From IMG/VR virus record IMGVR_UViG_3300034061_002572, positions 1 through 64,000 of that record: a stretch of DNA of 64,000 nucleotides. The stretch is one strand, 5' to 3'. The translations under genes and the position numbers were made by a program. Positions 22,301 to 64,000 of this stretch are shown one piece after another; the first letter of the stretch is position 1, and the number at the start of each line of letters is the position of its first letter. The DNA is from a virus. A model generated the notes under the pieces. It did not search any database and was not told the DNA's origin. It saw nothing but the letters and a program-made list of their open reading frames with translations.

Positions 22301-25300
22301 ACTTTAGAAGTTTAGATTGATCAATACTTAGTTCCGCACCATTCGGTTCCCCATCTTTATCCGTTACTAAAGCAACAAGAGCAGATCTTTGTCGGTAATA
22401 CTCAGATAGTTCTCTCACAATATCAGCTTTCTGGTTCTTGGATCCTATCTCTCTTAACTGGGCATATATTTCCTGAAGTCTTTGTTGATATTCTGGAGTA
22501 GTTGCAATTTTTAAATTCTTGTTAAAAAACTTTTGCAACTCTTCATTAAACTGTTTCATCTTTGCCGGATCACTTTCATCATAAGTAATACCTTGAGCAG
22601 CTAATTCAACATTAACATAATTATCTAAGTCTCTTTGAAATTTAGCTGTGTCAGTTACAAACTCATTAAAGCCTGCAGATTTTCTTCTGTGATGTAGTCG
22701 GATTAATACCTTTTGAAGTTCATCACCTGTTTTGTATTTACCAAAGCTATCATAAACATTATAAAGCTCATCATAGTTTCTTTTAGCAATTTGTGAATCT
22801 GTAACTTCTAATACATCATCTAACTCAGTAAAAGGTTTCTTACTGTAAATTGACATCTGGTCAATGGCCTTTTGTCTTTCTAATAAAGCTTGTGTAGCTA
22901 CATCAGCTGGAATTACAATCTCTGTCTTAGTGGATGGATCATATACTCTGTTATCTTGGAACCAAATCTTCTGTACGTCATATACTTCTTTCTTGTATTT
23001 TCTATGCATGTACTTATCATTGAACTCCCAAATATCTTTTTGAGCTTGTCTTATTTTAGCAAGGTCTTCAGTTTCTCTAGCTTGTTCTAATGCATCATTT
23101 AACCTTCCTATCTCAGCTCTCCAACCAGTAAACTTATCAATCAAGGATAATACTTCAAATTCTTCATACTCTCCTTTGTCATTCTTACTTGGAATTTTAT
23201 CAGTAAACATTAATAGTTTAGCTAGTTGCCCTGTATCATTTGGATTATATCCTGCAGCTTTTAGTTCCGGAAGAATAGATGACATAAAATCATTCCACTC
23301 TGTATAACTTTTACTTTCTGCATTAGATAGTTTAGACTTCATATATCTTACAAAAGATCCTAAAGGATCATCTATATTAGAATATGGTGTCATCATTGAG
23401 GCCAGGATACCTAAGTCTCCAGCTTTACCTTCTAGAAGATCCGTTATTTTTTCTTTAGTGATAACCTTTGCAAAGTAAGATTGCACAGCATCAAGTATTG
23501 CTTTTTCAAATCTAGTAGGTTTTGGAAGTTTTAAATCCTTCACATCAAACCTTCTCATATCCTTAGTATTAACTATCTGGTCAACTACTGAATCTATTTC
23601 AGCATCCGTATAGTTGTCAGCCTTAAGAATATTCATCATCTTTTCTTTAAGAGAATTTGAAATTGATTCATTCATAAAGTCTGAATTCTCTACAATGAAA
23701 TCTTTCATAAACTCTTTCTCCAACTTTCTAGTCTCAGCAATTGTATTTCTTACTCTCTCACCTATAGCAGATAATTTTTTAGTTAATGCATTATCTGGTT
23801 CTAACTTAAGTGTATCTTTAATCTCATCTAGAAAATCATTTTGTCTTTCCAAAAACTGCTGATAATAAGCAAGTTTGGCCATTCCTTCATTAGTAAGATG
23901 TTCATTAGATTGTTTCATCTCATTAATTACTGTCTGAATTCTTTTTGTAAAGACCTCTATTTCACTTATACTGTTTATAAATGCATTAGCCCTGATTCTA
24001 AAATCAGTTTGTTGTTCTTCTATTTGTCTTAATAACTCTGCAGGATCTATAGAAGCTTGATTAGGATCAACAGTTTGTGAAGTTTGAAGATTATCAATCA
24101 GATTTCTTAGAATTCTCATCCCGTCTTTTCCCTGAAGTTTTTCTTTTAACTTATAAGGGCTATTTTTTAAAACTCCAATCTGGAACATTGCTTCACTATA
24201 AAATCTATTAATAGCTTCTAAGAAGTCTTTAGCATCCGTGGACTTTAAATCATTTAAGAAATCATCAATATCATTTTTAAACTCAGCATAGTCACTTGGT
24301 TCAAACTGTAAATTTTCAATCACAAAGTCTTCACCTAACAACATATCAGTTAATTGCTCTAAGTCTGTAGTTGACTTTAGTTTTTTCAAGTCAACTTTTC
24401 TCCCCATAACTTTATTTATGATTTGCTTGATAGCATATAATAGTAAGTCAATGAATGCTTTGAAGTTATTATCGTCTGATACAATACCATCAATTTTATT
24501 CATGGCATCTCTCTCTAAAGCAGTTACAAGACATTCTTCTTTGAACCGGTCAGACTCTTGGTCTAACTCTGGGTAAGTATTAGTTATGATATTGCTGATA
24601 TCTTTCCCATCTGCTGTAGTCATAAGCTTGAAATACAGATTTTCAAATAGGACTCTGTTATCTCTTGCAATACCTTTAATCAATGGATGTGCAAACTCAT
24701 GTATTAAGTTATCTACAGAAAACTTACCGTCTATAAAATAGATTTTATTATTAAAATAAAATGACGCGGCATTAGGTTTTAATGGTGTTTGAGTATCAGC
24801 TAATAACTCTTCTGCTTCTGACTTACTTATCATTTGATAGTCCATACCAAATGCAGCCTTAAACTTCTCTCCTAATTTTTGAGCAATCTCATTGGCTCTT
24901 GCCTTTTTAATTTCATCCTCATTCTTAGGAAACATTGAATACATCTGCTCCTCAATAGTAGTAGGTTCCTCATTAAATAAACTGATTTGACCTTTTTCTT
25001 TTATTGCTTTTTCAATATCAGAAATAAGTTTACCTCTTTCAATTGCTCTCTGCAGTTTTGCGGGAGCATCCAACATACCTTTTCTTTTAGTAACTATCCA
25101 GTTATATAAACTAGATTGACCTACAGGAACATAGTTAGCAAAGTAATTTATAGGAATACCCTTTCTAAAATTATCTGTATTCTTTTTATCAATAGCCTGA
25201 TTAAGTCTTATCTGATCTTCATTATAGATTTCTTTCTTAATTGAGATACCAAGATCTGTTTTAATATCAGCGGCAGTCATTATACCAAGATCTTTTCTAA

Positions 25301-25442
25301 CACTGTTAGACTTTAAGAACTCAGCATATCCAGGAAACTCTTCATTAAAATACTTATCAACTAAATTTTTAATTTTTATTTCACCAAATATATCTGTTAG
25401 CCTTTTTACTTCCGGATCAGATAAGTTTAAACATGTTGCCAT
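19356..25442 (-). CDS. Giant virion cargo protein, 2,028 aa: zincin, LysM, membrane segment
   Basis: Probable virion protein ejected into the host. The first ~270 residues have a zincin metallopeptidase motif, HEFAH at 248-252, in a layout like phage polyvalent proteins (Iyer and colleagues' term). Residues ~300-1,200 are a long charged, largely helical region. A LysM module occupies about 1,707-1,751 (YDVQAGDTLESIAKKYHM), which usually binds peptidoglycan. A hydrophobic helix near 1,864-1,882 (YLALLALAVTMIFGY) could insert in a membrane. It lies 2 bases after the RNA polymerase gene in one late unit. The third zinc ligand is not clear by eye, so catalysis is inferred. The layout suits a protein that crosses the cell wall and membrane during genome delivery. 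Confidence 0.85.
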   Translation of the reverse strand: MATCLNLSDPEVKRLTDIFGEIKIKNLVDKYFNEEFPGYAEFLKSNSVRKDLGIMTAADIKTDLGISIKKEIYNEDQIRLNQAIDKKNTDNFRKGIPINYFANYVPVGQSSLYNWIVTKRKGMLDAPAKLQRAIERGKLISDIEKAIKEKGQISLFNEEPTTIEEQMYSMFPKNEDEIKKARANEIAQKLGEKFKAAFGMDYQMISKSEAEELLADTQTPLKPNAASFYFNNKIYFIDGKFSVDNLIHEFAHPLIKGIARDNRVLFENLYFKLMTTADGKDISNIITNTYPELDQESDRFKEECLVTALERDAMNKIDGIVSDDNNFKAFIDLLLYAIKQIINKVMGRKVDLKKLKSTTDLEQLTDMLLGEDFVIENLQFEPSDYAEFKNDIDDFLNDLKSTDAKDFLEAINRFYSEAMFQIGVLKNSPYKLKEKLQGKDGMRILRNLIDNLQTSQTVDPNQASIDPAELLRQIEEQQTDFRIRANAFINSISEIEVFTKRIQTVINEMKQSNEHLTNEGMAKLAYYQQFLERQNDFLDEIKDTLKLEPDNALTKKLSAIGERVRNTIAETRKLEKEFMKDFIVENSDFMNESISNSLKEKMMNILKADNYTDAEIDSVVDQIVNTKDMRRFDVKDLKLPKPTRFEKAILDAVQSYFAKVITKEKITDLLEGKAGDLGILASMMTPYSNIDDPLGSFVRYMKSKLSNAESKSYTEWNDFMSSILPELKAAGYNPNDTGQLAKLLMFTDKIPSKNDKGEYEEFEVLSLIDKFTGWRAEIGRLNDALEQARETEDLAKIRQAQKDIWEFNDKYMHRKYKKEVYDVQKIWFQDNRVYDPSTKTEIVIPADVATQALLERQKAIDQMSIYSKKPFTELDDVLEVTDSQIAKRNYDELYNVYDSFGKYKTGDELQKVLIRLHHRRKSAGFNEFVTDTAKFQRDLDNYVNVELAAQGITYDESDPAKMKQFNEELQKFFNKNLKIATTPEYQQRLQEIYAQLREIGSKNQKADIVRELSEYYRQRSALVALVTDKDGEPNGAELSIDQSKLLKSIEDKIVELNSAFDKKTGLSTEQKLRLDQYESKIQEGKDLTSIEQDDYARLLDLKNDLGLSSLELTNLKMLFKELSEITNTTATDSYLKTFNDVVGDTEIQQLLPDNTIGMGAVQSITTETADEFINSAAIYQIKAANSAFAEWFDRNHYSKTFFDKSGKETTRYYRIKAWSVTRPSDSKYYVKTKIINPANGLELDVLGVPVSKYTYTRVKDQYRTIPRGADKSQYIGTVINNRGQFLPREYNLGDPNSAYDKKFINDEYYKLKAENGVRFRLLEAYKKQYLKIQEDKPSESKLYLDMPRFRKKSNLEYVQSGQAKADFGSKLEGIKGGALAMFKKDAEDAEHKFNFDTDSLLIETDLQGEVITEIPVRGLYRIKANEVSQDVLTATATYLHSLNEQQALIEEEPIAKALKNILNDPENAIKETNKVSKQASKARGKQVFIPKGRNKFRRDNQRADAYSHYIDRLFYGQGSSQFQNENVWVTKIANNLMGAASRSFIALDVTSALKNKLGMTFQKMIETAGGQYLNAVSAAQGRVRAFKATIELSSKGIYTKGPKSLDLQMMERFDPITGKTKSDFGKSSSRTFVKDFLDGTWMYDSRKLMEVESGLQLFYGMMYHKEIEQTQKDGTVKKIKYVDAFELDANNQMVLKEGINPEWGPSPINYDVQAGDTLESIAKKYHMTAEELKTKNKLTSDTLTEGQPLVISKSKLFNDFKLKIQGVGKNLNGLMSEQDTPQANKYLTYRLFTFYRKYATSMFLNRFQFDTSKENFGGEVYDWDMGTTTKGYYIRAFQSMYNTVRQGTKYWKIMTKDEKVALRKVAAEGLYLALLALAVTMIFGYDKGDEDRFEKMKQREDQYGTFGWLANHTLYQLIMVKRENESFIPIPGIGMDEWLEFTNSTTIVTGPTLDLYSKIMMDLWYMMTGNEKGLYKSDVGPYPWQHKDENGEYHYKLWNHLFGIFGVKGKNVSPIWAIKKNEAFENLN

Positions 25443-25444
25443 TA

Positions 25445-28400
25445 CTATCCTAATTTACATTTTTTATAATATTCTAAAACTTCATCTACAGATAACTCAG
25501 GGTTCTTAAGTATTTCTTGATTAAAGAATTGACCAAACTCCGCACTGTTTAAAATTTCAACATCTGATTTTTCAAAAGTTGGCTCTTCTAAACTCTCAGT
25601 ACTTTGTGGTTTAAGTTCCTCTGGAGTTATTCTATTGTCATTGCTTTTAGAAGTATATCCATAGATTGTAAAGTTATTATAATTTTTAGACATTAAATAT
25701 TCTAAAAATGGTCTATCTGCAGAACTGTTACCAAAAATGAATGTAGCCTTTTTACTTATGAATGCATTAATTGCTTCTTTTACTGGAGCGTCCAAAGGTT
25801 TATTTCTTAAAGAATAGTTTCTTGCCAACATAATCACCGGGTTCTCAATATGAGACATTGGAGCAACTAATCTAGCTCTTCCTTTTATTTGAGCTACCAC
25901 ATTAGGTTTAAGTTCTTCTGGCAGCTGATCTTTAATTTTTTTCTGTACTACCCTAAGTGTGGTTTGTGAAGAACTAACAGATTCAACTGATTCAACTAAA
26001 GCACCGTCTGCCATCTGTCTCATCTTTTGATCAGCTAATGTACCATCTTCTTTACTTACCTTTTTAAACTCACCCATGTCAATGAAGTTCTCAGATAAAT
26101 CTGGTTCTCCAGTTTCTATGTATTCATCAGGAGTAAATCTATTGTAATCCCAAACATCTTTAAGTCTTCCAAATGCAATCTTAGCAGCAAATGTATTTCT
26201 CCAATCAGCAATTCTTAAAGTAACACCTGAACTAAGTTTAATAGGTCTATTTGCTGTTCTCTCAGGAGTAACAACATCATAACTAAATATATCAATTGCT
26301 TTAGCTTCTATGTCACCAGTATGAGAATCTGTCTTAGGAATATATTGACTAACTACTTTACCTTCTGCATCTACTATATCATAACCAACTACCTTGTTGT
26401 TTTTTCCTTGGAATTCAACATTCTCTATTGTATATCCTTCTGGAGCTATCAACCAAGTATCCGTAGAGATACCATCTTCTTTATTGACAATTTCTCTAAC
26501 ATAAACATTATTAGGATAGAGTTCTTCAAAAATTTCTTTTCCTTTTTCTCTAGTTAATGTTGATACCCAATCTAAGTCATGTACTTGATTCTCATTTGGT
26601 CTGTATACACTACCTTGTTCTGATAGTGTAGTTGACCCGGTAAGAATAAAATATTCTGACATCTTATCTACTACAGCAGTTGCAAATGGATCAGAGTCTA
26701 GTGCTTCTTGTAAGTTAACTGGAGTTATTGGTTTACCTTCGGCCCCCGGCTTATAATTACTTGCAACAATCATAGACTTATTTCTAGCAAGAACACCATC
26801 AGCAATTAATCCAATATTCCTATTGATTCTTTTTAATCTAATTGCATTGATCAAATTAAAGAAATAGTCAATTAATATTTTAATCTTCTCAATTAAAGAT
26901 TTAGGCATTTCTGTATTGGTCTTCTTATGAAGTTGTTCTGAAATAAGTTCCCCGATAACATCTAACAACTCATCCTTTGAAGATGATTTGTATCTGCTGT
27001 ATTTTCTTAGAGCTTCATAAGTCTCAGTAACCAATGGGTTATGTTGCATCATATAGGCAATAAACTTACCTGCAATGTTTGGTAAATCTTCCGTGTTATC
27101 CTTTTGTACATAACCTATTTTGTTAAGTATATCAGCTACCGCAAAAGAATCCATTCCTAGTTTCTCTTTAATATCAGTATACTCAAACTTGATTCCAAAT
27201 GAAGACAAGTAGTTTACTAAGAGTTTATTTAGTTGATTCTCAGCTTCAGGCACAGATCTGTTTAACAAGTTTGTGTCAATAGGATCAATGTTAACTTTAC
27301 TGAAGTCATAAAGCTTTTTAAGATTTTTCTCTAAATATTTTTTATTGATGCTACCATCATTGGCTCTTTTTCCTGTCTTAGGATCAAGAGTTCCCTCATT
27401 TCTAGATGCATTTAACCAAGTCTCATAGTTTCTAGTTACATTATAAATTATATGAGATGGTACTCTAAGATCATCTAATGAAGCTTTGATAACATTTACA
27501 TCTGCATTTTTATCATTTTTCAGAATTTCATTTCTCATTCTGTTATATGCATAAAGTGCAAGTTCTCTTTTGTTCAACTTTTTGATTTCATCAGCAGTTA
27601 CTTCTTCTAAAGGTTTTCCAAATAATCTCATAGAGATTCCCGGATTAGAAGCATACATATACTTTTGCATGTTCTCTTCTTTAAAGTTATATCTAAAGCT
27701 TGCCTTACTTATTTGATAGCCACTTCTTTGATATTTATCAGTTACATCCTTAGGAGCAAATCCAATTACATCAAATTGTTTAGATATATAAGGAATAGCT
27801 TCAGCTAAAAACTGTTTACTTGTTGGAGAAGAGTTCATGTTTGATACAAACACATTTAATCTAGGCTCATATGTACCAAAGATGTAAGTGTCCTTATACT
27901 TAATAACATTACTATTTTTAACATATCCAACAAACTTTTCATAAGGCAATGCAGACTCAGCTCTTTGTTTATTTCTACCCATCAGATTAACATAATTCTG
28001 ATAAAGTTTCATTAAGAACTCTTGAGAGGGCTCCTCACCTAGGACATCTGATAATCTATTTCGAACCATACCTTTTGGCTCTACTTCATTATCAAGTGTA
28101 TTAAAATCTAAACTACCTATTCCAGGAGCAATCTCATTAACTGCAGGTTTAGGAATATCAATTTCAAGAATCGGAACACTTAATATTTCATCTTTTTGTA
28201 TACGGCTTGCATTAGTAAATGAATTATAATTTTCAGGATCCTGAACATAATTCTTAAAGTAATCTTTTCCTTTAAACAAACTTTCAAAAATATTATCAAA
28301 TGTATTGATATTAAGATTTCTATTTGTAAAGTTTATAGATGCGTTCTCCATAACTAGTAGGAACTGATCATAAGGAAGTACTTTATTGATACCATATTTA

Positions 28401-31400
28401 CTGTACCCAAGTCCATTTTGATAAATAGACATTAAAGGTAAAATCTTAAATACTTCTGTTATGTATTCATTTGCTGCTGGATCATCAGACTTAAGAACAT
28501 TTATATCAGCAAGATCAGTAAGGTTAAGATTATATGACTCAGCTAAGTCACCTTTTGCTAAACCTTTATTGTTTAAAGTAAGAATTTTTTCTGCTCCTCT
28601 TGAGTTTGCTTCACTCAATTGTAAGAGTACAGGATATTTATCTTTTAAAGTTGGATACTCATTAATTACACTTTGTACAAGTTTGGTAAATGAATATTCT
28701 TCTGTACCTACAATTGCTTTTTGATTAAAGCTATTTATAAGTGCTCTTTGATTTACAAAAGTTTCATAGTCTCTTGATTTTAACCATCCGGAATTATCTT
28801 TCATTGATGCTTTTGGAAACTTATCCTTAATAAATTCTCTTTCCATAGTATATCTCAAGTATGAAGCAAATGTTTCAAAAGGATCATCTTGTGTTTTAAA
28901 TGGTTTTAAACCTTTCTTTGCATATGCCTCAGGACTTGGAGAACTATCTAAATATGTTTTTGCATTAAATTGTTTTTTCAGTTCTTCAGTATTTATATAA
29001 AAGTTTCCGTCTTTAAACTCAACACCGTTATTTAATTCAGCTGTAGTTTGAACAACTTGAGCTCCTCTGTATATCTCAGGAATATTAACAACTTGACCTT
29101 GAGCATTAATTATATTTGTCATATAGTTCTGATAAATATAATTGACTACTGCATTTTTATATTCATTAATGAATTGTCTTACTCCTTCCTGACCTTTTCC
29201 ATATTTACCTGTAATCTTAGATGCATATGCCGAAATAGCATAGCTTACATACTCATTAATTCTTTTGTTATTTCTGAGTTTGAATAATGGCTCAAGTAAA
29301 TCAAGAACAACTTGGTTGTCAAAGAATGTATTAAGGATTGATTCGTTTCTTAATTTTTCTATTAACTCCGGATCAATCTTAGATAAGTCAGATAGATCTT
29401 CAAGTGCTGTAACTCTTTCAACTATCTCTTGTATAGTCTTAGAAGTTTTAGTATCTGGATTAGATTGTCTCTTTAATGCTTGAATACCTTTAATTTGTTT
29501 TTCAATTTCAATAAAGTGTAAGAACATATCCAATGATTTTTTATCAATAGGATAACCTTCTTTCAATCTGTTTCTCATATCAGCTGTATCAAAACTACCA
29601 GTATTTGCAACTGTAGCTGCTGTATAGTAATTTTTATTTGTTACAAGTGATTGAGCTGGAGCATAGATTACATCATATTTTTGTTTGTCTGGATTGTATT
29701 CTTTAATTGCAGTAATATGATCTATACCTCTATCACCAGGTTTTAATACTTTATCAAGACCGTCTATGATTTCTTTTCCTGTTAATACTTTAGTAAATTC
29801 CTTTGTATTACCATTTGCATCTGTACCATTAAACTTGTATTGATATTTAGTATTCCAAACTAAAAGATCTTTTACATTTTTAATGTTCTCTTCATTTAAT
29901 TTTTTGTATACTGGATCTAAAATATCTCTTGGTACCAAGTTATTAATGGCATTATTAGATGCTTCATATTTTATGTATGAAGGTGACTCTGGTGACTGAC
30001 CACTGAGTTTTCCATATACACTACCTAAAATCTTTTGTTGTTTTACATACTCTCTTACAAGAGGCTGTGATACAAAATTTATAGCCTCATTCTTTGGAAC
30101 ACCTGTTTTAATTAAATAAGCTAAGACAGGTATTACTTCTAAGTTACCTTGAATAAAGAATATCCATGCATCTTTCTCAACATCCACAAGACCGTTCATC
30201 ATCTGTGAATATAAATCAGCTATTGTATCCCCTTCAGCATTTAGAATGTTTGATAATGAGATATTTCCCGCGGCTGTTTTATTATGATTAAGTCGCAATC
30301 TCATATCCATTTCTTCTCCATACTTATCTTCCACGTATCTTTGACGAGACTCATCAAAATAAACTGGTTTGTATTTTAAAGGCATCTTAGCACCAAGTGC
30401 ATTAAAGATTGGACTTAATGAGTTTTCAATAGCTACAATACCAAGACCGGCCTTACCAACCATGTTTACATCATGCTTGTGTAAGTTGTATCCAATTTCT
30501 AATACTCTGGTCGGACTGATTACCTTTTTAGCTTTTCCTTTTTTATCTATAACATACCGATCACCCTCATTATGTTCATTACCAAACTTGTTATAGTCAA
30601 TAACATCTGATTCAAGATCATCTGCAATTTCCTTAAGTAGATAAGTTTCATTTGGTCTTACTAAGTTTGCATAGTTTTCAGGAAGCTCAAGTATACCTCT
30701 GATAGAAGTTATGAGTTTGTTCTCAAGTACTTTTTTCTTTTCTTCAATAAGACCTAACACTCTTGATCTAGCATTTTTGTCATCTGAATTCTTAATGTTT
30801 TCTATTACTCTTTTGAGAGCTTCATTATCAAATTCTTCTGTGCTTTCTCTAAACTGACCTTTCTCATTTATACTTGGCATAAATGTAGTCAACTTATCAA
30901 CGTCAAAGTCAGATCCTGATTTGGCAACAATTTCAGATGGAGGAATGATTATATTACCTGCAGAAGGATGTAAGAAGTGATGTACTTCCATAAACTCCAT
31001 AGAGTTTAGACCCTGAACTGGAATCCTAACTGCTGTTAAGGTAACTGATTTTCTATTAGTTCCAGTATCTAACCAGTCATCATCTTTAATAGCTTCATTT
31101 AGTCTAGCTAAACTTGCATTAAAATCTACTGTACCATCTGCATTATTAACCTCAATGGTTTTATTATCAGGATGTTTTAATTTAAATAGATTTTCAAAAT
31201 CACCTTGCATTGCAATAGCAACTTTCATTGCTGATGTTTTCCCTCCATTATTATCATAAAAAGGAAGGTTATTAGAACCCATGTACTTTCTAATGTCATC
31301 TTCGGTTGCTCCAGTAAATTTATTACTATGACCCCATAGACCATTACTTAAACCACTAGATACTTGTACAAGAGCTTCACCTTTTACTTTTTGTTTTACA

Positions 31401-34400
31401 AGTCTTTTCTCAATAAGTGATACTAAGATTTTTTCAATCTCATCTGCTTCTAGATGTAATGATAAATCTGTCTTTACATTATTGTTTTCTGTTACATTTA
31501 CAAATTTAATATGGTGCTCAGGTATTGCTCTTCTTCCTAATTCATCACGAACTACTTTTAAGAAATCACCTAAGTTACCTACATATTTACCATTCTTATA
31601 CTCATATCCTATTTCCTCAAGTAATTGAGTTTTGAGAATGTCAGAGTATTCATCTACTGTATCTTCATATTGTTTTACAGCCGCCTCAATGTCTGTGTTA
31701 CCTCTTAAATTTATAATCCCTTGTTCATATAGACCTTCAAGAATTAACTTTCTTAACTGAGTAGAGAATACAGTTTTACCTTTAAATTTATTTGGAACAG
31801 ATGTAACATTCTTTAAGTATTCAAGATATATTGTATTCTTAGTAAATTCAATATCAGTCTTTAACTTTTTACTTTCTGGATCATCATATATCTGATCAGC
31901 TTTACCATCTTTAGTTTCACTACCAACTTTAGAACCAGTTTGGAATGTAACATACTGAACTCCTTTCTTCATCATTTGATGGTGAAGTGATTCAAGATCA
32001 GATCCTTTTATTACATTAGGTATCAATGGAATCAAGGCAAATTTATGCATTGCATTGACCGGTAACTCAGTATATGCCAAGTGACCAAAGTGCTGTAACT
32101 TATATGCTGGAAAAAATTCAGATATCTCAGAAGTTGTAACTGGTTTGTTTTGAATAATTTTTTGGAATAGAGCTTCCTGTTTATCCGTCCAATTGTTTTC
32201 AAGCAATCTTAAATTCCTATATGCATCAAAAGTAATGAAACCTTGTGCATCAGTCTCTTCCATTTTTTCATACTTCTCAACTTCTAAGTTTACTCTTCTT
32301 TCAACCTCAGCTTTAAGAGCATCACCTTTATATGATTTACTTAACTTGTTAGTATAATCTTTAGTCAGACCTTTTCTGATTTGCTCAGTATAAACAGACT
32401 TTCTTTCTATATCTCTGAATATTGCAGTATTGAAAGTACCTCTATACTCAGTCCATAGATTCATTTCATTTGCAAATTCAGGTTGTTTCTTTAACTCTTT
32501 TGCATATGAAGTATTTTTTGCAAAGCTATTTATAAAGTTCTGTGCATATACATCAGTTAGAAATCCTTGCCCACCTGATGTAGATCCTGTATTTCTTTTA
32601 TGCATCTCTTCTTTTGCATGGTTATATTGTACCATATCACCATACATAAGGTTTGCAGTCTCAAAGTTATGTATCCAGGAGTTGTATGTAAAAGCTTTTA
32701 CTAAAGCTGATACAGCTTCACTTTGCTTCATACCTAATCCTGTAAGTCTTTTTAATAGTTTAGGATCTATGTAGTTTACCTCAGTAAGATACTTCTCATT
32801 CTTAAGAGCTTGAGCATCAAAGTAATTTTTAATCTCATTAGTAATCTTTTCTCGAAGTTCTGTATTTGTTTGTAAGTATTCTCTTAATGTAGAATCTTTT
32901 ACATTTTTATAGATCTCTTCTTTAGTATCTTGAGTTAATACATTATCAAATGCAGTAAAGACTTGACCAGCATAAAGAATAGGATCACCATTGGCATCAT
33001 ATTCTAAAACTCTATTATATCCACTATATGTTTTAAATAGATCTTGATCAGAATTAAATGCTTGAATTCTTCCTAACTCAGCATCCAAATAGTCTATAAA
33101 GAATTCTTCAACAGCATACTGGTTAGCAATACCATTAGGAGTGAACATGTCTATATCAATATATAGATGTCCATCATCTCCTTTTTCCATTCCTCCAACT
33201 ATATCACCGTTTACCTTTACACCAAATGAAGATGACTTAGAAGCATGTCTCATAAACTCTTGAAGACCACCTTTTAACATCATATGCATTTCTTGCAAAA
33301 ACTTACTATAGATATCTAGTGAAGTAGTATTAGCTCCTTCCGTACCATCAGCAATCTGGGTTCCAGACACATAATTCAAATCCAAAGACTTACCTTGCCT
33401 TCTTTCATAAGTAGCTGTATCAATTTCAAAAATACTGTTTAGAATCTTTGATCTCAAAGTAAAAGAGTTTATCTCTGGATTAAGATAACTCATATACGCT
33501 AACTTGTCAGATCCCCATAATTCTTGTAAATTCTTAGCTTGATTAATAGCATGCACAATCATACTAACTGTATGATCTTCAATGTGTTCAAATACTAGAT
33601 TTCTCTCGGCATTCAATACACTAAAGTTTGAAGAGTCTGCACCATATTTACCTTGAAGTTCTGCAAATCTTTCTATAATATTTTTTTGCTTGAACTGTTC
33701 TGTTCCAATAACACCTGCCGGAATTCCTTTTTTCAATACTCCAACAGGATCTAGTTTAAAGTCAGCTATTGTTTTTAATTGATCTCTAGTGACTTTATTT
33801 TTTTCTTTATTAGATAGTTCCTCAAGTTCAGAAAGTTTTTTAACTGCCTGATAAATATACTGGAGACTATAGAAGTCTTTATTTTTATTAAGCTCATTCT
33901 TTATAATTGATAAATCATCAAGATATAAACCAATGGCTCTTGCAAATTCAAATGACTTTGTACTATCAAATGCACCACTATCTTTTCTTCCAAATTTTTC
34001 AGCAATCTTTTGAAGATCAAGAGAGTTTACATTATTAGTTCTAATAGTATATGGATTGTTTGTATCCGCCTTAAACTTATTTTGAAACTTCCGTATTACA
34101 CTGGAAGTCTCTATTGAAGCTTCTGTAACTTCTAACTCATATCCTTTACCTTCTTTAAATGCCGTAAGCTGAATATATGTTACTCTTGGCTTCTTAAAGT
34201 CTTGCCAGAATGCAGAACTAATTGAAAACTCATACTTATCTAAAGTCTTTGTTGGGTCCGGAAGTTTATAATCAATAAGTTGTTGTAACTCAGGAAATGT
34301 AGTAGAAGCAGCTTTAAGCTTATTATACATTTCAACTCTGTCTTTTGTACCACCTATTGTTCTGGTTACATTATTCCATGTAGTAGTAAAATCAGCAAGT

Positions 34401-37400
34401 TCTTTAAAACCTAGTTTATTGTAAACAAAGTTTTTACCATCTTTCTTAAATAAACTTTTTAGAATGTAAACAGTTTCTTTACTAGCTAGTTCTTGAAGAG
34501 ATTTATCATTAGATATTTTATCACCATACCTTTCACTCTGTTGAGCTTCTTCAACTACAGTTTTATTTTCATCATCTGCATATTCTATTTCAATATACTT
34601 CTGACGAACAATATCAAATGTACTGTTTTCAATATGATACTTTACTAAACCTTTAGTTTCATCACCAAAATTATCTAATCCAATTTGAATGATTCTCTTG
34701 GCATCTTCTAACTGAGATATCTCATACTCTCTTTCAGGATTATTTTCAATAACTTTAATTTGAGAATCAATTTGTTTTAGTCTCTCTCTGAGTTCTTCTT
34801 CAACCATCTCATAAGCAACCTTCTTGTTTCTTTGATCAGTTAAGATTTTTACAGCTCCCGCCTTACTTACTATTTTATCATCATTCTGTTGTTTAGCAAG
34901 TTCAATAGACTCTGCATAAGTTTTATCAATAATATCAGATATAATTGAATCAATACTATTTACTAATACTGCAGAATCTTGAAAGTTTAATACTTCTGAC
35001 TTTAAACCATCAACAGAATTAACACCTCTATCCAGCATGCTGAACATTGCATTATCTACATTTGGTTTATAGATGTTTAGTATTGAGGGATCACCACTTG
35101 CCATGTATAACTTATCATACAATTCCTTGACAGCAGGTATAAGAGTTACATCACCGGCAACTTCTTCTCTTTTGAATACTTTATTAAATAATGACTTTAT
35201 AAAATTTAAAATTCTTCTAAACAGACTATTCTTTACAGGAGTATCTTTTGCAGCTTTTGGATTTAGAACATAACTCCTAAAGTCTTCTGCCAGCATTTCT
35301 TCTAATTCAAAATATGTTTTGTCTTTGTTAGGTTGATTACCTTTAGAATCTGTATAATTTTTTAATTCATTATATAGCTTAGTCTTTTCTTCTTTAGTTA
35401 AGAACAACTGAGAAAATGCATGCCATGCTTCATGGTATACATCTACCATAGTTCCACCATTAGCAGTATCAATATTTATACTTGTATCCGCCAGAGTAGC
35501 TCCAGCAATAATAAAATTTGCAAAAGAATCTGAGTTAACAACATTACTCATTTGTTCAAGCTTGATAAACTTACTTAATGGACTATTCTTCCACCATTTT
35601 ATAGCTTCATCAACTTGTTCTTTGGTAACATTATTAGGTAACTTATTACTTCTGTCCCAGAAAAATCGGTTTCTCAAAGTTCCTTTTGAAGTAGGTGTTT
35701 CTTCAGGTCCTTTAGTATCTTTAGGTTGAATACCTTCTTCAATACTTGGAGCAACTGGGAATGATACACTTTCTTTAAGTATAAAGTCATCGGTACTTGT
35801 CGGTAATACATCCGGTTCACTTTTTACTGCTGAATCTACATTAGTAGGTGCAACCTCTCCAAATGTAAGAGTATCTGTAACTTCTCCTTCTTCTTTAACT
35901 TCAGTAGGTTGAGTAGATGGTTTTTGATCAACTTTTTCTTTAGCTCTATTTAAACTTTCAGTAAATGGAGTATTAGGTCTGAACATAATATAAGAGTTGA
36001 AAACTCCTAGACTATTCTCAGGTGTAAATTTTACTTTAGCAGGAAACTGTTTAATGAAATCAGTATAGTTTGCTCTTACAAACTTACCTGTAGTAGTATC
36101 ATAGTCAGAAAAAGTTTTACCATTAAGTTTAGGTTCAAACTTCATTTTAGAAGTTGAGTATTCACCGTCCTCTCTATATGCATACTTTAATACATTCTCG
36201 ATAATATCTTTTGCATCTGGTTTAGTAAGATCAAGCGCAATAGGATCATTCTTTAATTTATCTAACATAGCTTTATACATTGTATAAGGTCTATAGAAAA
36301 ATGATAGTTTGCCTTCTGCTTTATTATAGAAGACAGCATGTCTTTGAACTGAATAGTCAAGATTAGCTGTAAACTGATTTACATAAATATATTTTTGTTG
36401 ATCGGTTAACTGTGGATTTGTAAGTACTGCAACAATTTTACCTATAAGATTATCATCCATATTAGGTCTATTAACTGCAAACTCTCTGTCATTAATAGTA
36501 ATTACTGCTTGAGATTGTCCAAAACCATCACGAGGAGATTTGATAATATTTAGTGTTTGATATACATCATTTGATACTCCCGGGATATTTGTTAGTTCAT
36601 TAAACTTAACTTCCTTGGTCACATATCCCATGTTTAATCCTTCACTAACACCAGTTATAGAGAAGTCTTCAGTTTTCCCTTCTAGTATATTTTTTTTAAT
36701 ATCATAGAGAATTTTAAACTGAGCTTGCTGTTCAACTTCTTTTTCAGCAATTAAATCTTCAATTGTTTTTCCTGTATCTTTTAATAACTGAGCAGCAAAT
36801 TCTTCTTCAGTCATTTCTGATTCAGCTATTTCATTTTCTACAAGTTGTTTAGGAGTAATGATTTGATTATCAATACCATAGATATCTGTTACTCTATACT
36901 TGCCATCTTCAATTCTGGTGTCTCTTAAAAATTGATAAACCAGTTTTCCAGTTTCACGATTATCAGTAACATGTCCATCTTCATCAAATAAAACAATCTG
37001 ATTAGTATTTTTATCTACTAATACCATTGCAATCATTTCATTTGCTTCAGTAACTCCAGCTCTACCTGTTTTGTTCTTTCTAAATAGAGCACTCTTTTTT
37101 ATTCGGTCAATAGCATACTTATCTAATTGCTCTTGAGGAAGTTCTGTTAATCTTTTAGGTTGAAGCACTAAGTTTTTACCTTCAAAGATTAGATCTGTCA
37201 TTGCATTAAATCCTTCAGGTAATGATCTTCTGATATTATATAGAGTATTATAAATTCTATTTTTTGTTGGTTCAAGTTCTTCAATTGCAAACTCTTCTTT
37301 CTCAGAAGGTTTTTTTGCTTTGAATTGTTGCATTGTTAAACCAAAAGGACTCTTAGCAGCAAGTCTTACATCAGCTTTCTGAATAGGCTTTTGTTCATTT

Positions 37401-37792
37401 GGATTATTCAAGACATTTCCTTGTTGGATTTTAACAAGTGTCTTTAAATTTTTTGGATCAGCAACTGGTTTAAATTGTTTTAGTACACTATCTATTCCAG
37501 TATCCGGATCTAAGAATGTATCTCTTAACTCCATCAAGTCTGTTTCCTTCTTAAGTTTTAATCCTCTCATAGAAGGTTTCATAGCAATTGTACCAATAAT
37601 CATAGGTAACTGCTGAACAAATAATGCCCCTGTTATAGGATCATTCTTCTTGTCATATAAGTCAAAAATTTGTTGCATTAGCTGCTTAGGATCAAACTCT
37701 TCACCTTTTGAAAGTGAAGCATTCATTCCTGAACTAGCTACAATATATAAATTCTTAATGTCCTTTTCGGTTAATACACAACTTGTTTTCAT
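25445..37792 (-). CDS. Giant virion RNA polymerase fusion, 4,115 aa, with zincin and nucleotidyltransferase-like parts
   Basis: Carries the crAss-like single-chain RNA polymerase. DFDVD at 2,295-2,299 in SGSDFDVDKL is the metal-binding loop of the beta'-type double-psi barrel. About 1,914-1,954 (KFALIPLIPNVIKGSDLESL onward to GSKVG) looks like the beta-type barrel. A zincin motif, HEAWH, is at 787-791. A nucleotidyltransferase-like stretch has GS at 3,719-3,720 and HDLD at 3,738-3,741. The C-terminus has a Rossmann-like strand (KKATFIFGNSSADRPFLEYL). In phage phi14:2 the homologous polymerase is packaged and transcribes early genes after ejection. That enzyme is roughly half this size, so extra domains have been added at both ends. 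The gene ends TAG directly followed by TAA. Confidence 0.9.
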   Translation of the reverse strand: MKTSCVLTEKDIKNLYIVASSGMNASLSKGEEFDPKQLMQQIFDLYDKKNDPITGALFVQQLPMIIGTIAMKPSMRGLKLKKETDLMELRDTFLDPDTGIDSVLKQFKPVADPKNLKTLVKIQQGNVLNNPNEQKPIQKADVRLAAKSPFGLTMQQFKAKKPSEKEEFAIEELEPTKNRIYNTLYNIRRSLPEGFNAMTDLIFEGKNLVLQPKRLTELPQEQLDKYAIDRIKKSALFRKNKTGRAGVTEANEMIAMVLVDKNTNQIVLFDEDGHVTDNRETGKLVYQFLRDTRIEDGKYRVTDIYGIDNQIITPKQLVENEIAESEMTEEEFAAQLLKDTGKTIEDLIAEKEVEQQAQFKILYDIKKNILEGKTEDFSITGVSEGLNMGYVTKEVKFNELTNIPGVSNDVYQTLNIIKSPRDGFGQSQAVITINDREFAVNRPNMDDNLIGKIVAVLTNPQLTDQQKYIYVNQFTANLDYSVQRHAVFYNKAEGKLSFFYRPYTMYKAMLDKLKNDPIALDLTKPDAKDIIENVLKYAYREDGEYSTSKMKFEPKLNGKTFSDYDTTTGKFVRANYTDFIKQFPAKVKFTPENSLGVFNSYIMFRPNTPFTESLNRAKEKVDQKPSTQPTEVKEEGEVTDTLTFGEVAPTNVDSAVKSEPDVLPTSTDDFILKESVSFPVAPSIEEGIQPKDTKGPEETPTSKGTLRNRFFWDRSNKLPNNVTKEQVDEAIKWWKNSPLSKFIKLEQMSNVVNSDSFANFIIAGATLADTSINIDTANGGTMVDVYHEAWHAFSQLFLTKEEKTKLYNELKNYTDSKGNQPNKDKTYFELEEMLAEDFRSYVLNPKAAKDTPVKNSLFRRILNFIKSLFNKVFKREEVAGDVTLIPAVKELYDKLYMASGDPSILNIYKPNVDNAMFSMLDRGVNSVDGLKSEVLNFQDSAVLVNSIDSIISDIIDKTYAESIELAKQQNDDKIVSKAGAVKILTDQRNKKVAYEMVEEELRERLKQIDSQIKVIENNPEREYEISQLEDAKRIIQIGLDNFGDETKGLVKYHIENSTFDIVRQKYIEIEYADDENKTVVEEAQQSERYGDKISNDKSLQELASKETVYILKSLFKKDGKNFVYNKLGFKELADFTTTWNNVTRTIGGTKDRVEMYNKLKAASTTFPELQQLIDYKLPDPTKTLDKYEFSISSAFWQDFKKPRVTYIQLTAFKEGKGYELEVTEASIETSSVIRKFQNKFKADTNNPYTIRTNNVNSLDLQKIAEKFGRKDSGAFDSTKSFEFARAIGLYLDDLSIIKNELNKNKDFYSLQYIYQAVKKLSELEELSNKEKNKVTRDQLKTIADFKLDPVGVLKKGIPAGVIGTEQFKQKNIIERFAELQGKYGADSSNFSVLNAERNLVFEHIEDHTVSMIVHAINQAKNLQELWGSDKLAYMSYLNPEINSFTLRSKILNSIFEIDTATYERRQGKSLDLNYVSGTQIADGTEGANTTSLDIYSKFLQEMHMMLKGGLQEFMRHASKSSSFGVKVNGDIVGGMEKGDDGHLYIDIDMFTPNGIANQYAVEEFFIDYLDAELGRIQAFNSDQDLFKTYSGYNRVLEYDANGDPILYAGQVFTAFDNVLTQDTKEEIYKNVKDSTLREYLQTNTELREKITNEIKNYFDAQALKNEKYLTEVNYIDPKLLKRLTGLGMKQSEAVSALVKAFTYNSWIHNFETANLMYGDMVQYNHAKEEMHKRNTGSTSGGQGFLTDVYAQNFINSFAKNTSYAKELKKQPEFANEMNLWTEYRGTFNTAIFRDIERKSVYTEQIRKGLTKDYTNKLSKSYKGDALKAEVERRVNLEVEKYEKMEETDAQGFITFDAYRNLRLLENNWTDKQEALFQKIIQNKPVTTSEISEFFPAYKLQHFGHLAYTELPVNAMHKFALIPLIPNVIKGSDLESLHHQMMKKGVQYVTFQTGSKVGSETKDGKADQIYDDPESKKLKTDIEFTKNTIYLEYLKNVTSVPNKFKGKTVFSTQLRKLILEGLYEQGIINLRGNTDIEAAVKQYEDTVDEYSDILKTQLLEEIGYEYKNGKYVGNLGDFLKVVRDELGRRAIPEHHIKFVNVTENNNVKTDLSLHLEADEIEKILVSLIEKRLVKQKVKGEALVQVSSGLSNGLWGHSNKFTGATEDDIRKYMGSNNLPFYDNNGGKTSAMKVAIAMQGDFENLFKLKHPDNKTIEVNNADGTVDFNASLARLNEAIKDDDWLDTGTNRKSVTLTAVRIPVQGLNSMEFMEVHHFLHPSAGNIIIPPSEIVAKSGSDFDVDKLTTFMPSINEKGQFRESTEEFDNEALKRVIENIKNSDDKNARSRVLGLIEEKKKVLENKLITSIRGILELPENYANLVRPNETYLLKEIADDLESDVIDYNKFGNEHNEGDRYVIDKKGKAKKVISPTRVLEIGYNLHKHDVNMVGKAGLGIVAIENSLSPIFNALGAKMPLKYKPVYFDESRQRYVEDKYGEEMDMRLRLNHNKTAAGNISLSNILNAEGDTIADLYSQMMNGLVDVEKDAWIFFIQGNLEVIPVLAYLIKTGVPKNEAINFVSQPLVREYVKQQKILGSVYGKLSGQSPESPSYIKYEASNNAINNLVPRDILDPVYKKLNEENIKNVKDLLVWNTKYQYKFNGTDANGNTKEFTKVLTGKEIIDGLDKVLKPGDRGIDHITAIKEYNPDKQKYDVIYAPAQSLVTNKNYYTAATVANTGSFDTADMRNRLKEGYPIDKKSLDMFLHFIEIEKQIKGIQALKRQSNPDTKTSKTIQEIVERVTALEDLSDLSKIDPELIEKLRNESILNTFFDNQVVLDLLEPLFKLRNNKRINEYVSYAISAYASKITGKYGKGQEGVRQFINEYKNAVVNYIYQNYMTNIINAQGQVVNIPEIYRGAQVVQTTAELNNGVEFKDGNFYINTEELKKQFNAKTYLDSSPSPEAYAKKGLKPFKTQDDPFETFASYLRYTMEREFIKDKFPKASMKDNSGWLKSRDYETFVNQRALINSFNQKAIVGTEEYSFTKLVQSVINEYPTLKDKYPVLLQLSEANSRGAEKILTLNNKGLAKGDLAESYNLNLTDLADINVLKSDDPAANEYITEVFKILPLMSIYQNGLGYSKYGINKVLPYDQFLLVMENASINFTNRNLNINTFDNIFESLFKGKDYFKNYVQDPENYNSFTNASRIQKDEILSVPILEIDIPKPAVNEIAPGIGSLDFNTLDNEVEPKGMVRNRLSDVLGEEPSQEFLMKLYQNYVNLMGRNKQRAESALPYEKFVGYVKNSNVIKYKDTYIFGTYEPRLNVFVSNMNSSPTSKQFLAEAIPYISKQFDVIGFAPKDVTDKYQRSGYQISKASFRYNFKEENMQKYMYASNPGISMRLFGKPLEEVTADEIKKLNKRELALYAYNRMRNEILKNDKNADVNVIKASLDDLRVPSHIIYNVTRNYETWLNASRNEGTLDPKTGKRANDGSINKKYLEKNLKKLYDFSKVNIDPIDTNLLNRSVPEAENQLNKLLVNYLSSFGIKFEYTDIKEKLGMDSFAVADILNKIGYVQKDNTEDLPNIAGKFIAYMMQHNPLVTETYEALRKYSRYKSSSKDELLDVIGELISEQLHKKTNTEMPKSLIEKIKILIDYFFNLINAIRLKRINRNIGLIADGVLARNKSMIVASNYKPGAEGKPITPVNLQEALDSDPFATAVVDKMSEYFILTGSTTLSEQGSVYRPNENQVHDLDWVSTLTREKGKEIFEELYPNNVYVREIVNKEDGISTDTWLIAPEGYTIENVEFQGKNNKVVGYDIVDAEGKVVSQYIPKTDSHTGDIEAKAIDIFSYDVVTPERTANRPIKLSSGVTLRIADWRNTFAAKIAFGRLKDVWDYNRFTPDEYIETGEPDLSENFIDMGEFKKVSKEDGTLADQKMRQMADGALVESVESVSSSQTTLRVVQKKIKDQLPEELKPNVVAQIKGRARLVAPMSHIENPVIMLARNYSLRNKPLDAPVKEAINAFISKKATFIFGNSSADRPFLEYLMSKNYNNFTIYGYTSKSNDNRITPEELKPQSTESLEEPTFEKSDVEILNSAEFGQFFNQEILKNPELSVDEVLEYYKKCKLG

Positions 37793-37802
37793 TTACTACT
37801 GA

Positions 37803-40800
37803 TTATGATTCACAATTTTCTTCTCTCTCTTTTTCCATTTGAGCAAGAGCATCTTCAAGGCTTGTAGTTTTTCCTTGTTGATCTAATTCATTAAGATTAG
37901 CTGTTTCAAGGAAATTTTCAGTTACTACAGAACTATCAACTGATGTTTCTTTAGTAACAGGATCTGCACCTGTTGTATATTGTGCTTTATATTCTTCAAT
38001 GCTCATAGTAGTAAAATAGTCATTTATTTCGGATAAATCAAGTGTTCTTTGAGAACCTTGGTATTTAAATTTAACTTTTCCATTTTCAACAGAAGAAACT
38101 CTTATTTCGGCACCTACATCTGCAAACACTTCATTTGGATTTCGAGCTTTAAAGATAGTACTAATAACTGTAAGTTTATCACCCGCTTGAATAGAAGATT
38201 CACTTATTTTTACATTAGTAGGATCAGTAAGTTCTGCTTTTTTCTCACTAAGTAAATCTGATATTACTTCCATATCGGTTGGAGTTATTTCAAATGCTAA
38301 AGCCTTATTATTCAATTCTAACTGATAAGCTAAAAATGTTTGCATATCATTTATAGTCTTCAGTTTTTCCACTACATCATCTACAGAAATTAATTCCGGA
38401 GTGTTATCAAAAGTAATTGAACTTGTTACTTTACCTTCTTCATTAATATTAGTTGGTATTCCAAATGAAAGTGAACTGACAACTTGTTCTTCTCCTGTAG
38501 GAGTTGGAACAACATCATCCTGTGGTTGTTTTTCCTGAGTAAGTAATTCATACTTAGTTATAAGATCTTTAACATCAGCTTTACTAGTTGCTGCTTTAGC
38601 AGTTTCTATATCTTCATCTGACATTAAGTCAATCATTGCACTAGTAAATCCAAGTTTACTTAACTTAGCTTTTGCTGCCGGAGACATTTCAGTACCAACT
38701 GTAATAGGTGCTTTAAGAGGAATCAATTTATCTATATCCTCTTTTACAGAATTCTTGTCTAAGTTAACAATATATTTTCCTGGAGCTAACAATCTAGTCT
38801 CTCCTGGTTTAAGAGCTTTTTTATCAACTGGTCTAGATACTGAAGTTATCATACCTGTTTCATCCTCATATGTAATTTGTATTGGAAGAATTCCAACATT
38901 TACATCAAGTCCTGGAAACATGTTCTGTAATAACCTTGCATATGCAGCTTGCTGATATGTATTTTCTATTTTCTTATTATAATGAATACTTGTAGGATCA
39001 TTATATCCAGCCCATTTACTTTCTTTACCAGTCTTAACATCCACAATAAACATTTTACCAGATTGGTCTACCAATAGTAAATCTATCTCACCTGCTATTG
39101 CAGCATCCTCATCATACACTCTCAAGTCTTCAGACACAACATAATACTGACCTGTATCAACCATTTCTTTTATCTTAGCTAGATAACCGTTTTCACCAAA
39201 TAATTGATTATAAGCTTCTTCAGTTATTTTAGCAGGATTAAACACTGGTGTTTTACCGGCAAATAATTCTTTAATTGCTCTATCAATATAATTACCTGCT
39301 TCAGTAGCTTCATCATATGTATTTTCATTTGTTATAGGTTTAACTTCTTCACGGAGAATATTAAACTTATCCATTTCATCTTCAATTTCTGAAGTATTAA
39401 ATACATAATTTTTATCTCTATTTTGTCTGAGTTTATTGTATACAGCTGATGGTTGGTCTAAAACATCATCTGTTACTACTTGATCACCAAATATTGTAAT
39501 GTGTCTTCCATCTATAACATTTCCATCTTTTAAATTAAAGATCCATTTTTTAACCATTTCCATTTCATCCATTGGAGCATCAACAGTGACAGTTCCATTT
39601 TGAATTGGTGATGTAAGTCCTTCTCTAGATATGTATCCTCTATTCATAAAGTTTAACATATCAGATTTCATTTTCTTAAATGCATTTTCACTTAGACCAT
39701 CATCTTTAATTTTTTTGTTTCTAAGTTCATTAATAAATTCATCCAAGAAAGCTTCATTAGGTTCAGTTACATTTGGATTATTTTTCTTATAGTTAGCAAG
39801 TGCTGTATCATAAGCCTTCATGACTTTATCCATATACTTGTAACTGTACTCTTTTGGTAATACTCTTTGGATTGCTTTTGTAACCCTTTCCATTACCTTT
39901 CCATTTATAACATAGCTACCATCAAATAAAATATTTTTCTGCATATCTTTAAGCTGTTCAATTTGCTCAATTGCTTTTTTCATTTCAGTTGAGTATCCAG
40001 CTCTTGATCTAGATTTAATTAATAACTCAAGCTTATTCTGAATTGCTTTCATTTCAGCTATTGAGTTAATATTCTCTAATGACGGTGTAGTGATTTTATT
40101 AAGATTATCAATAATAAGTTCTAGGTCAGAAATTAATTTTCTTAAGTTAGGAATTGTCTTATAATCTGCAGTATTAACTTTTTTACCATTAATCATAAAT
40201 GTAAAATCCTCAACTTCTCCAGTTTCTTCAGTAGCAGCTTTAATTTTTGCATTCTGATTATACTGTGAAATTAAATCTTTAGCAGACAAACTTGTTCTCA
40301 TGAAGTCAGCAAAGAAGTTTTCTTTCTGTTCTTCAGAAGCAGACTCAGTAAGATTCTTAGGTAATGACTCAAAATAAGATTGATATGCACTCATAAGAGA
40401 TTCATATAACTCCGGAGCTCTCCTTTGTATTTCATCTATAGGAGTAGTGATTGTAATAGGTTCAGTTTTTTCAACTTGAGTTTCTTTTCCTAAACCTTCA
40501 CGATAACTATCTATAATCTCTGCTCTAAGTTTCTCATACTTTTCATTAATCATTTGAACTTCAGCAGGATCAGCTTTCATTACATTGCTATATCTTACAG
40601 CAGATGTAAAGTTGATATCATCATTCATCTCCACTAATTCACCCTCAGCATTATCATACTTCAGATTACCCATATCATTATAGTAAACTATAGGCTCATC
40701 TGCTCCTTCATATGTTGCTTCAATATACTCACCAGGTAATGATTCTTCAAGTATGGTTCCCATACTAAAGTATTTCATTTTACCTGTTGGTTCAATTATA

Positions 40801-63939: not shown

Positions 63940-64000
63940 TTAAGCTGGAACTTCATAAAGCTTTCCCCATGTTTCAATTGAAGCTATAACAAGTGTATTA
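63940..64000 (-). CDS. C-terminal end of an unidentified gene (starts right of the window)
   Basis: Reading leftwards from the window edge, a frame is open for 19 codons (ending ETWGKLYEVPA) to TAA at 63942-63940. A terminator follows 58 bases later. By position in crAss-like genomes it would be a capsid-region or portal-proximal gene, but the fragment is too short to identify. Confidence 0.5.
   Translation of the reverse strand, partial: NTLVIASIETWGKLYEVPA

Follow-up and report, generated by a model that had tools for sequence, protein, structure and literature searches.

RNA polymerases (RNAPs) of up to about 6,000 amino acids (aa) have been reviewed as a hallmark of crAss-like phages (PMC10136315), and the multidomain RNAP block of crassviruses has been described (PMC7886860). 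In phage phi14:2, the RNAP gp66 (Protein Data Bank [PDB] entry 6vr4; 2,180 aa) carries both catalytic halves and the DFDxD motif on one chain and is accompanied by gp67 and gp65. In phi-crAss001, the homologous set consists of gp47, gp50, and gp49, all three of which were detected in virions by mass spectrometry (MS) (PMC10172136). Here we analyze the corresponding locus of the virus record IMGVR_UViG_3300034061_002572 from IMG/VR, whose 122,643 bases include the window to which our coordinates refer (bases 1 to 64000). A single intact minus-strand open reading frame (ORF) of 4,115 codons encodes a crassvirus RNAP chain with exactly two cysteines, residues 5 and 4112, each facing a cysteine at the adjoining end of another giant protein. 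We propose, with a probability of about 0.6, that disulfides couple these proteins head to tail, so that the cargo is ejected as a single threadable chain whose members come apart when they are reduced in the host.

The 4,115-aa chain is a crassvirus virion RNAP of the gp66 family, with both catalytic halves in one polypeptide. When a 1,350-residue stretch around its core was used in tblastn searches, crassvirus RNAPs were found in 99 phage records (best E value, 2e-20; phi14:2 gp66, 3e-7), and a profile built from 49 sequences matched only the phi14:2 enzyme 6vr4 (E value, 9.8e-51). A structural model of residues 1301 to 2500 (predicted local distance difference test score [pLDDT], 85.6; predicted template modeling score, 0.85) spans both double-psi-barrel halves, and its best Foldseek match is 6vr4_A (7.7e-31), followed by QDE-1; the match is one at the level of fold. 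A first-pass annotation, made from the sequence of the window without database searches, had proposed both barrel halves in a chain of roughly 470 kDa. The profile, the model, and the fold search that it had called for bear this out, and the calculated mass is 469 kDa. The catalytic DFDVD motif lies where that annotation had put it, and the conserved G[SA] that precedes DFDxD in the gp66 family is present. The GSKVG motif is real as well and lies around K1955, within some residues of the earlier placement of its region at about 1,914 to 1,954. Across 12 aligned crassvirus RNAPs, DFDxD, K1898, K1917, K1955, K2015, Q2012, R2256, and P2258 are invariant, phi14:2 gp66 included (D1361, D1363, D1365, and K1065); the four lysines align with gp66 lysines, and G2138 and Q2143 are likewise common to the 12 enzymes.

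Relatives were reached by profiles and tblastn only: single-sequence searches with the whole chain gave no convincing match in Pfam, PHROG, or PDB, and the gene had no match at the DNA level among phages. Overall identity to gp66 is about 20%, although profile, fold, and gene position all correspond. The virion RNAP of phage N4 belongs to a polymerase family unrelated to that of crassviruses, and neither sequence nor fold searches gave any match to an N4-type (T7-like) RNAP. In L001, a close relative, a single chain of 4,449 aa is organized in the same way. In cr108_1, the RNAP reading frame is broken inside the DFDxD codons (L003:16836-17127), apparently by an intron; the 4,115-aa gene is unbroken there. 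By analogy with the MS-detected homologues of phi-crAss001 and those of phi14:2, which are virion proteins by MS according to the record annotation, the 4,115-aa chain is expected to reside in the virion.

The most surprising feature of the chain is the placement of its only two cysteines, which the first-pass annotation overlooked. The second of them is the fourth residue from the C terminus. The protein encoded upstream (2,091 aa) has a single cysteine, the third residue from its C terminus, and the protein encoded downstream (2,028 aa) has two, at residues 4 and 304. In all, the three proteins (8,234 aa) contain 5 cysteines where 81 would be expected at the genome average of 0.99%, and the two outer ends of the set, the upstream N terminus and the downstream C terminus, have none. 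The probability of finding at least four of the five within the four junction windows is about 2e-9, a value that ignores shared ancestry.

The same placement recurs in a discovery set of 58 distinct environmental loci, in which gene starts were set at the first ATG; crAss002 gp33 and L119 show that some such or annotated starts are too early. The RNAP chains of this set comprise 201,260 aa and 108 cysteines, of which 6 are interior. Among 46 complete distinct chains, 90 of 95 cysteines are terminal, and 40 chains have exactly two, one per end. A residue-by-residue table identified cysteine as the sole residue type with such placement. Cysteines face each other on both sides of 106 of 108 adjacent gene pairs. 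The two pairs that do not obey are not junctions between members: in one, a short unrelated gene comes after the last member, and in the other, such a gene precedes a fused giant. All true junctions (106/106) thus follow the rule. None of the 17 outer ends carries a cysteine. In crAss002, the annotated start of gp33 (NC_055828.1) lies about 32 residues too early, and the conserved start is MSCTPSNP.

An independent set of 80 further loci was fetched by gut-centered alignment after the rule had been formed; a few may repeat earlier records. At the 5' border, the C terminus of the upstream protein and the N terminus of the RNAP were concordant in 36 of 36 cases: both carried a cysteine in 8 and neither did in 28, these last being chains with the gp67 part fused, whose N terminus is hence an outer end. 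At the 3' border, both sides carried a cysteine in 53 of 58 cases. The five exceptions comprise three RNAPs whose last cysteine lies 16, 29, or 50 residues from the end and two downstream genes with a misplaced start, whose likely true starts are MGGNFC and MDYC. The C terminus of the last protein never carried a cysteine (0/39).

Described phages agree with this placement. In phi14:2, gp67 has one cysteine (its last residue), gp66 two (3 and -2, counting from either end), and gp65, which starts MSC, one (3). In phi-crAss001, gp47 has one (-3), gp49 one (5), and gp50 three (5, -9, and one interior). The fused gp32 of Fpv3 (4,287 aa) has a single cysteine, its penultimate residue. The giant RNAP chains of Intestiviridae and Suoliviridae (p-crAssphage gp45/gp44, cr1_1, cr50_1, cr107_1, cr118_1, and cr272_1; 4,070 to 6,386 aa) follow the same end-cysteine rule; they differ from our locus in that the polymerase has been fused with gp67 or gp65, which makes one of the two junctions a peptide bond.

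The cysteine pattern tracks the protein border and neither the domain nor the gene border. Where gp67 is fused to the polymerase (Suoliviridae, Fpv3, and L094), or gp65 is (Intestiviridae), the cysteine of that border is gone from the chain ends, and that of the other border is kept. Additional members inserted in the set (655 aa in L024, 244 aa in L086, 169 aa in L098, and 739 aa in L068) each carry a cysteine at both ends. The gp67-like protein still ends in a cysteine in phi-crAss001, DAC15, and cr128, although its gene is located elsewhere, on the opposite strand; this speaks against a signal at the gene border. The zincin domain belongs to the polymerase chain at our locus and to the gp47-like chain in phi-crAss001 and cr128; the border has thus moved, and the cysteines have moved along with it. 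Phi17:2, a crAss-like phage, has end cysteines in gp039 (-1), gp038 (4 and -2), and gp036 (3), with no RNAP seen in the corresponding block (L164:997-14501); a 119-aa gene between gp036 and gp038 departs from the rule. Lbo-JY46 keeps to the rule as well: each of its two giant cargo proteins has a single end cysteine (-1 in one and 4 in the other), and no recognizable DFDxD polymerase was found in the block examined (L020:12354-25260).

The virion RNAP of N4, gp15 and gp16 of T7, and gp7, gp16, and gp20 of P22 are ejected proteins of short-tailed phages. None contains a cysteine (RNAP gp50 of N4, a member of the Schitoviridae, 3,500 aa; T7 proteins, 2,065 aa; P22 proteins, 1,309 aa). In this they resemble the crassvirus cargo; unlike it, they lack end cysteines, save that T7 gp14 has one cysteine, at position 2. 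Ejected proteins thus seem commonly to lack cysteine, and the end cysteines would be a crassvirus addition.

In the coupling that we propose, three giant cargo proteins would be packaged and ejected into the host, with the polymerase chain as the middle member. A cysteine-free interior is what one would expect if this member passes the tail as an unfolded thread, and partial unfolding during ejection has been proposed for phi-crAss001, whose tail contains disulfides, several of them between proteins (PMC10172136). The end cysteines of the polymerase would pair with the C-terminal cysteine of the upstream protein and the N-terminal cysteine of the downstream protein, and these C-to-N disulfides would create one chain, here of about 8,234 residues, whose members could be pulled through the tail one after another, always in the same order. 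Once they reached the host cytoplasm, they would be separated by reduction, and the polymerase would refold and transcribe early genes. Gene fusion, as in many gut crassviruses, would swap a disulfide for a peptide bond. In its general form, namely, that crassviruses and their relatives eject their giant cargo, with the RNA polymerase among it, as a single chain in which disulfides between lone terminal cysteines link two to four polypeptides head to tail, with interiors purged of cysteine so that only the couplings form, with fusion interchangeable for a coupling, and with reduction to uncouple them, the proposal is on balance probable. The pattern that it predicts, one cysteine per junction-facing end and none at the outer ends, is the pattern observed.

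Several points weigh against disulfide coupling. Capsid assembly takes place in the cytoplasm, which is reducing, and many of the hosts are anaerobic. The interiors are not wholly depleted of cysteine: our locus has one extra interior cysteine (Cys304 of the downstream protein), and gut lineages have more (39 in cr272 and 17 in ctcc615). In three gut-type phages, the C-terminal cysteine lies 16 to 50 residues from the end. Our P values take no account of shared ancestry, although apart from the cysteines the ends can scarcely be aligned, and the pattern spans several fusions and insertions. The phi-crAss001 study compared reduced and nonreduced samples, and cargo disulfides are unmentioned in its accessible part (PMC10172136). 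Within our incomplete coverage of the open-access literature, we found no report of cargo disulfides or cargo cysteines in crassviruses and no earlier report of end-to-end disulfide coupling of injected proteins.

The terminal cysteines might instead link covalently to other virion parts (the portal, the tail barrel, or channel-forming cargo) or close a single chain from its N end to its C end. The interprotein disulfides of the phi-crAss001 tail are in keeping with this, and the even number of cysteines in the polymerase (two) makes a ring possible. We nevertheless consider it unlikely, since cysteines occur only at ends that face a cargo member (outer ends, 0/17 and 0/39), the 5' pair appears and disappears jointly (36/36), fusions join exactly those ends that are predicted to pair, and an upstream protein with one cysteine is unable to close on itself. 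Slightly less probable again are noncovalent docking sites between neighbors, such as a shared metal site, formed without a disulfide. Thiols do bind metals, and concordance shows merely that two ends act together; however, one cysteine per end provides only two ligands, no other end residue is comparably conserved, and the frequent alternative to the cysteines is fusion into one peptide, which favors covalent continuity.

It is very improbable that the cysteines were left behind when the genes were split, for example by inteins that have since decayed, or that they act as a signal in the RNA where two genes meet. Introns and inteins abound in crassviruses (PMC7886860), and the broken RNAP frame of cr108_1 fits that picture, but the cysteines are kept where the other terminal sequence is unalignable, TGT and TGC are both in use, and inserted members carry cysteines at both ends. 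Intein relics are disfavored by the absence of any intein match at the ends and by the variable offset of the cysteines, and a gene-border RNA signal is rejected, since nonadjacent genes follow the rule too. Equally improbable as an account of what sets this locus apart is an exceptional multienzyme fusion in which zincin and nucleotidyltransferase would make the polymerase chain one of a new type. The three domains are there, and the description is correct, but such lengths and the zincin fusion are widespread and already described, and the nucleotidyltransferase sits in a tail that differs in content between phages.

Crassviruses, N4, and other short-tailed phages all pose the question of how very large folded proteins leave a capsid jointly and in order through a channel of a few nanometers. 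Disulfide coupling, if true, would mean that what are perhaps the most abundant gut viruses link their protein cargo by redox-released bonds. The end-cysteine rule would offer a simple way to find all members of such a train, including those without a known domain, and the absence of cysteine might mark ejected proteins in other phage genomes. The variable polymerase tail would be a payload position within the train.

The first-pass annotation had presented the 4,115-aa chain as an exceptional fusion about twice the length of its phi14:2 homologue. The phi14:2 gp66 chain also has neither the zincin motif nor the nucleotidyltransferase tail; phi14:2, however, is at the short end of the range, and 4,115 aa is not unusual. 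Single RNAP chains of described crassviruses measure 4,551 aa in cr1_1, 4,774 in cr50_1, 4,460 in cr10_1, 4,213 in cr107_1, 4,245 in crAss002, 4,253 in ctcc615, 4,491 in cr4_1, 4,946 in cr118_1, and 6,386 in cr272_1. These nine chains, the 4,070-aa gp44 of p-crAssphage, and the reviewed hallmark of RNAPs up to about 6,000 aa rule out uniqueness. In the p-crAssphage annotation, gp45 is an RNAP-associated protein fused to a zincin protease, and gp44 is the RNAP catalytic subunit fused to an unknown subunit.

The zincin motif that had been noted upstream of the core (787 to 791) is real and conserved, and the domain is predicted. It reads HEAWH, and EEMLAE begins 44 residues after its start, which together give the HExxH plus downstream catalytic Glu of gluzincins; a Pfam search gave no match to this domain. 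HExxH is found in 68 of 72 N-complete chains, 1,347 to 1,777 residues before DFDxD, and 67 chains also have the downstream Glu motif. The spacing from zincin to DFDxD is similar in Suoliviridae giants; across the Intestiviridae and Suoliviridae giants, the zincin lies in the RNAP chain or in a neighboring protein. Phi-crAss001 differs from our locus in having the zincin on gp47, whose gene is on the other strand.

Downstream of the core, the nucleotidyltransferase-like stretch annotated at 3,719 to 3,741 holds up under comparison. GS...HDLDW occupies residues 3719 to 3742, and GS (3719-3720), HDLD, and IDIFS are invariant or nearly so in five homologues. Foldseek matched the model of the C-terminal region to the putative nucleotidyltransferase 4ok0 (E value, 5.7e-4; probability, 1.00); the model as a whole is weak (mean pLDDT, 54) and reliable in the nucleotidyltransferase part only. 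A predicted minimal nucleotidyltransferase fold (G[SG], D-h-D, and a third Asp) is thus supported by the model.

This domain lies in a tail that varies between relatives. In the environmental clade, the part from zincin to DFDxD is constant, and the stretch past DFDxD ranges from about 865 to over 2,200 residues. A Pfam search of 34 RNAP tails identified 2OG-Fe(II) oxygenase in 7, NADAR in 3, circularly permuted YpsA/SLOG in 3, ART-PolyVal in 3, GP30.3 in 2, helicases in 2, and DUF7831 in 11; PHROGs matches add exonuclease V and DprA-like domains. The nucleotidyltransferase tail of the 4,115-aa chain matches that of L039 (1e-19). L105, which contains stops, was left out of the tail alignment. 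Forty RNAP tails, 23,720 aa in total, contain no cysteine. On the domain matches in the tails of relatives, rather than in that of the 4,115-aa chain itself, the RNAP tail appears to be a payload that changes between phages, much as in the polyvalent proteins of phages and conjugative elements (PMC5512222). Those, too, are long chains that are delivered with DNA and have changing domains (zincins, ART-PolyVal, and SLOG-type folds), whereas the constant part here is an RNA polymerase.

Judged from its portal, terminase, major capsid, and muzzle proteins, the virus belongs to the order Crassvirales or its close relatives (portal, terminase, and major capsid matches to phrog_6547, 2.7e-96; phrog_6681, 2.4e-61; and phrog_11589, 1.2e-31). 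The genome has the usual crassvirus layout, with replication genes on one strand and virion and transcription genes on the other. Its closest major capsid protein is that of the cyanobacterial phage Lbo-JY46 (29% identity over 99%). A tree of RNAP cores places the 4,115-aa chain inside a large environmental clade beside the gut families, separate from Steigviridae, Suoliviridae, and Intestiviridae. The Lbo-JY46 protein matched by the upstream cargo protein itself matches phi14:2 gp67. The upstream protein contains a PD-(D/E)XK nuclease domain (residues 1620 to 1722; Pfam PDDEXK_1, 1.6e-4), and the downstream protein contains a zincin-like HEFAH motif (248 to 252) and a LysM domain (1710 to 1751; 4.3e-11). 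Coordinates are collected in Table 1.

Table 1. Positions in the window of the RNAP gene, its neighbors, and the features discussed
Feature	Coordinates	Strand	Basis
4,115-aa virion RNA polymerase chain, middle member of the proposed cargo train	25445..37792	-	intact ORF; RNAP core modeled and matched to 6vr4
RNAP core similarity to crassvirus RNAPs, residues about 1470-2606	29975..33385	-	tblastn/blastp; model of 1301-2500
DFDVD catalytic motif, residues 2295-2299	30896..30910	-	aligned to gp66 1361-1365
K1955 of GSKVG motif	31928..31930	-	aligned to gp66 K1065; invariant in 12 RNAPs
Cys5 codon (TGT), N-terminal junction Cys of RNAP chain	37778..37780	-	one of two Cys in 4,115 aa
Cys4112 codon (TGT), C-terminal junction Cys of RNAP chain	25457..25459	-	
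Cys2089 codon, sole Cys of upstream protein	37812..37814	-	
Cys4 codon, N-terminal junction Cys of downstream protein	25431..25433	-	
Predicted zincin-like domain of RNAP chain, residues 764-872; HEAWH 787-791, EEMLAE 831-836	35177..35503	-	conserved in 49 loci and Suoliviridae giants
Predicted nucleotidyltransferase-like domain, residues about 3694-3864	26201..26713	-	motifs invariant in 5 homologues; Foldseek 4ok0; domain pLDDT mostly 70-90
Variable C-terminal tail beyond RNAP, residues 3175-4115	25445..28270	-	length and domains differ between relatives
Putative upstream cargo protein, 2,091 aa, gp67-like	37803..44078	-	blastp to cr128 gp051 (5.8e-7) and Lbo-JY46 1552-aa protein
Putative downstream cargo protein, 2,028 aa, gp65-like	19356..25442	-	position and weak blastp to cr118 gp15 (5.7e-6), cr128 gp052
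Crassvirus muzzle protein (context)	56128..61527	-	Pfam crAss_MUZ 8.6e-28

Elsewhere in the virion block, an 807-aa protein (window 53705-56128) has a HELGH motif and no cysteine, and its N-terminal part matches an Lbo-JY46 protein. The genome also encodes a spore photoproduct lyase-like gene (2.1e-22; L009:17623-18495) and a gene resembling the C terminus of arginyl-tRNA-protein transferase (3.1e-7; L009:3047-3808). Ten further ORFs, a minority of the small ORFs of this genome, were scanned for a thioredoxin-type gene, and none was found. Genome bases 63940 to 72291 (window 63940-64000 and L007:1-8291) hold a run of minus-strand proteins with 3 to 9% cysteine, for example, 41 cysteines in 580 aa and 22 in 256 aa. 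These are the opposite of the cargo proteins; two members have no Pfam match, and the run probably encodes disulfide- or metal-rich surface or tail proteins.

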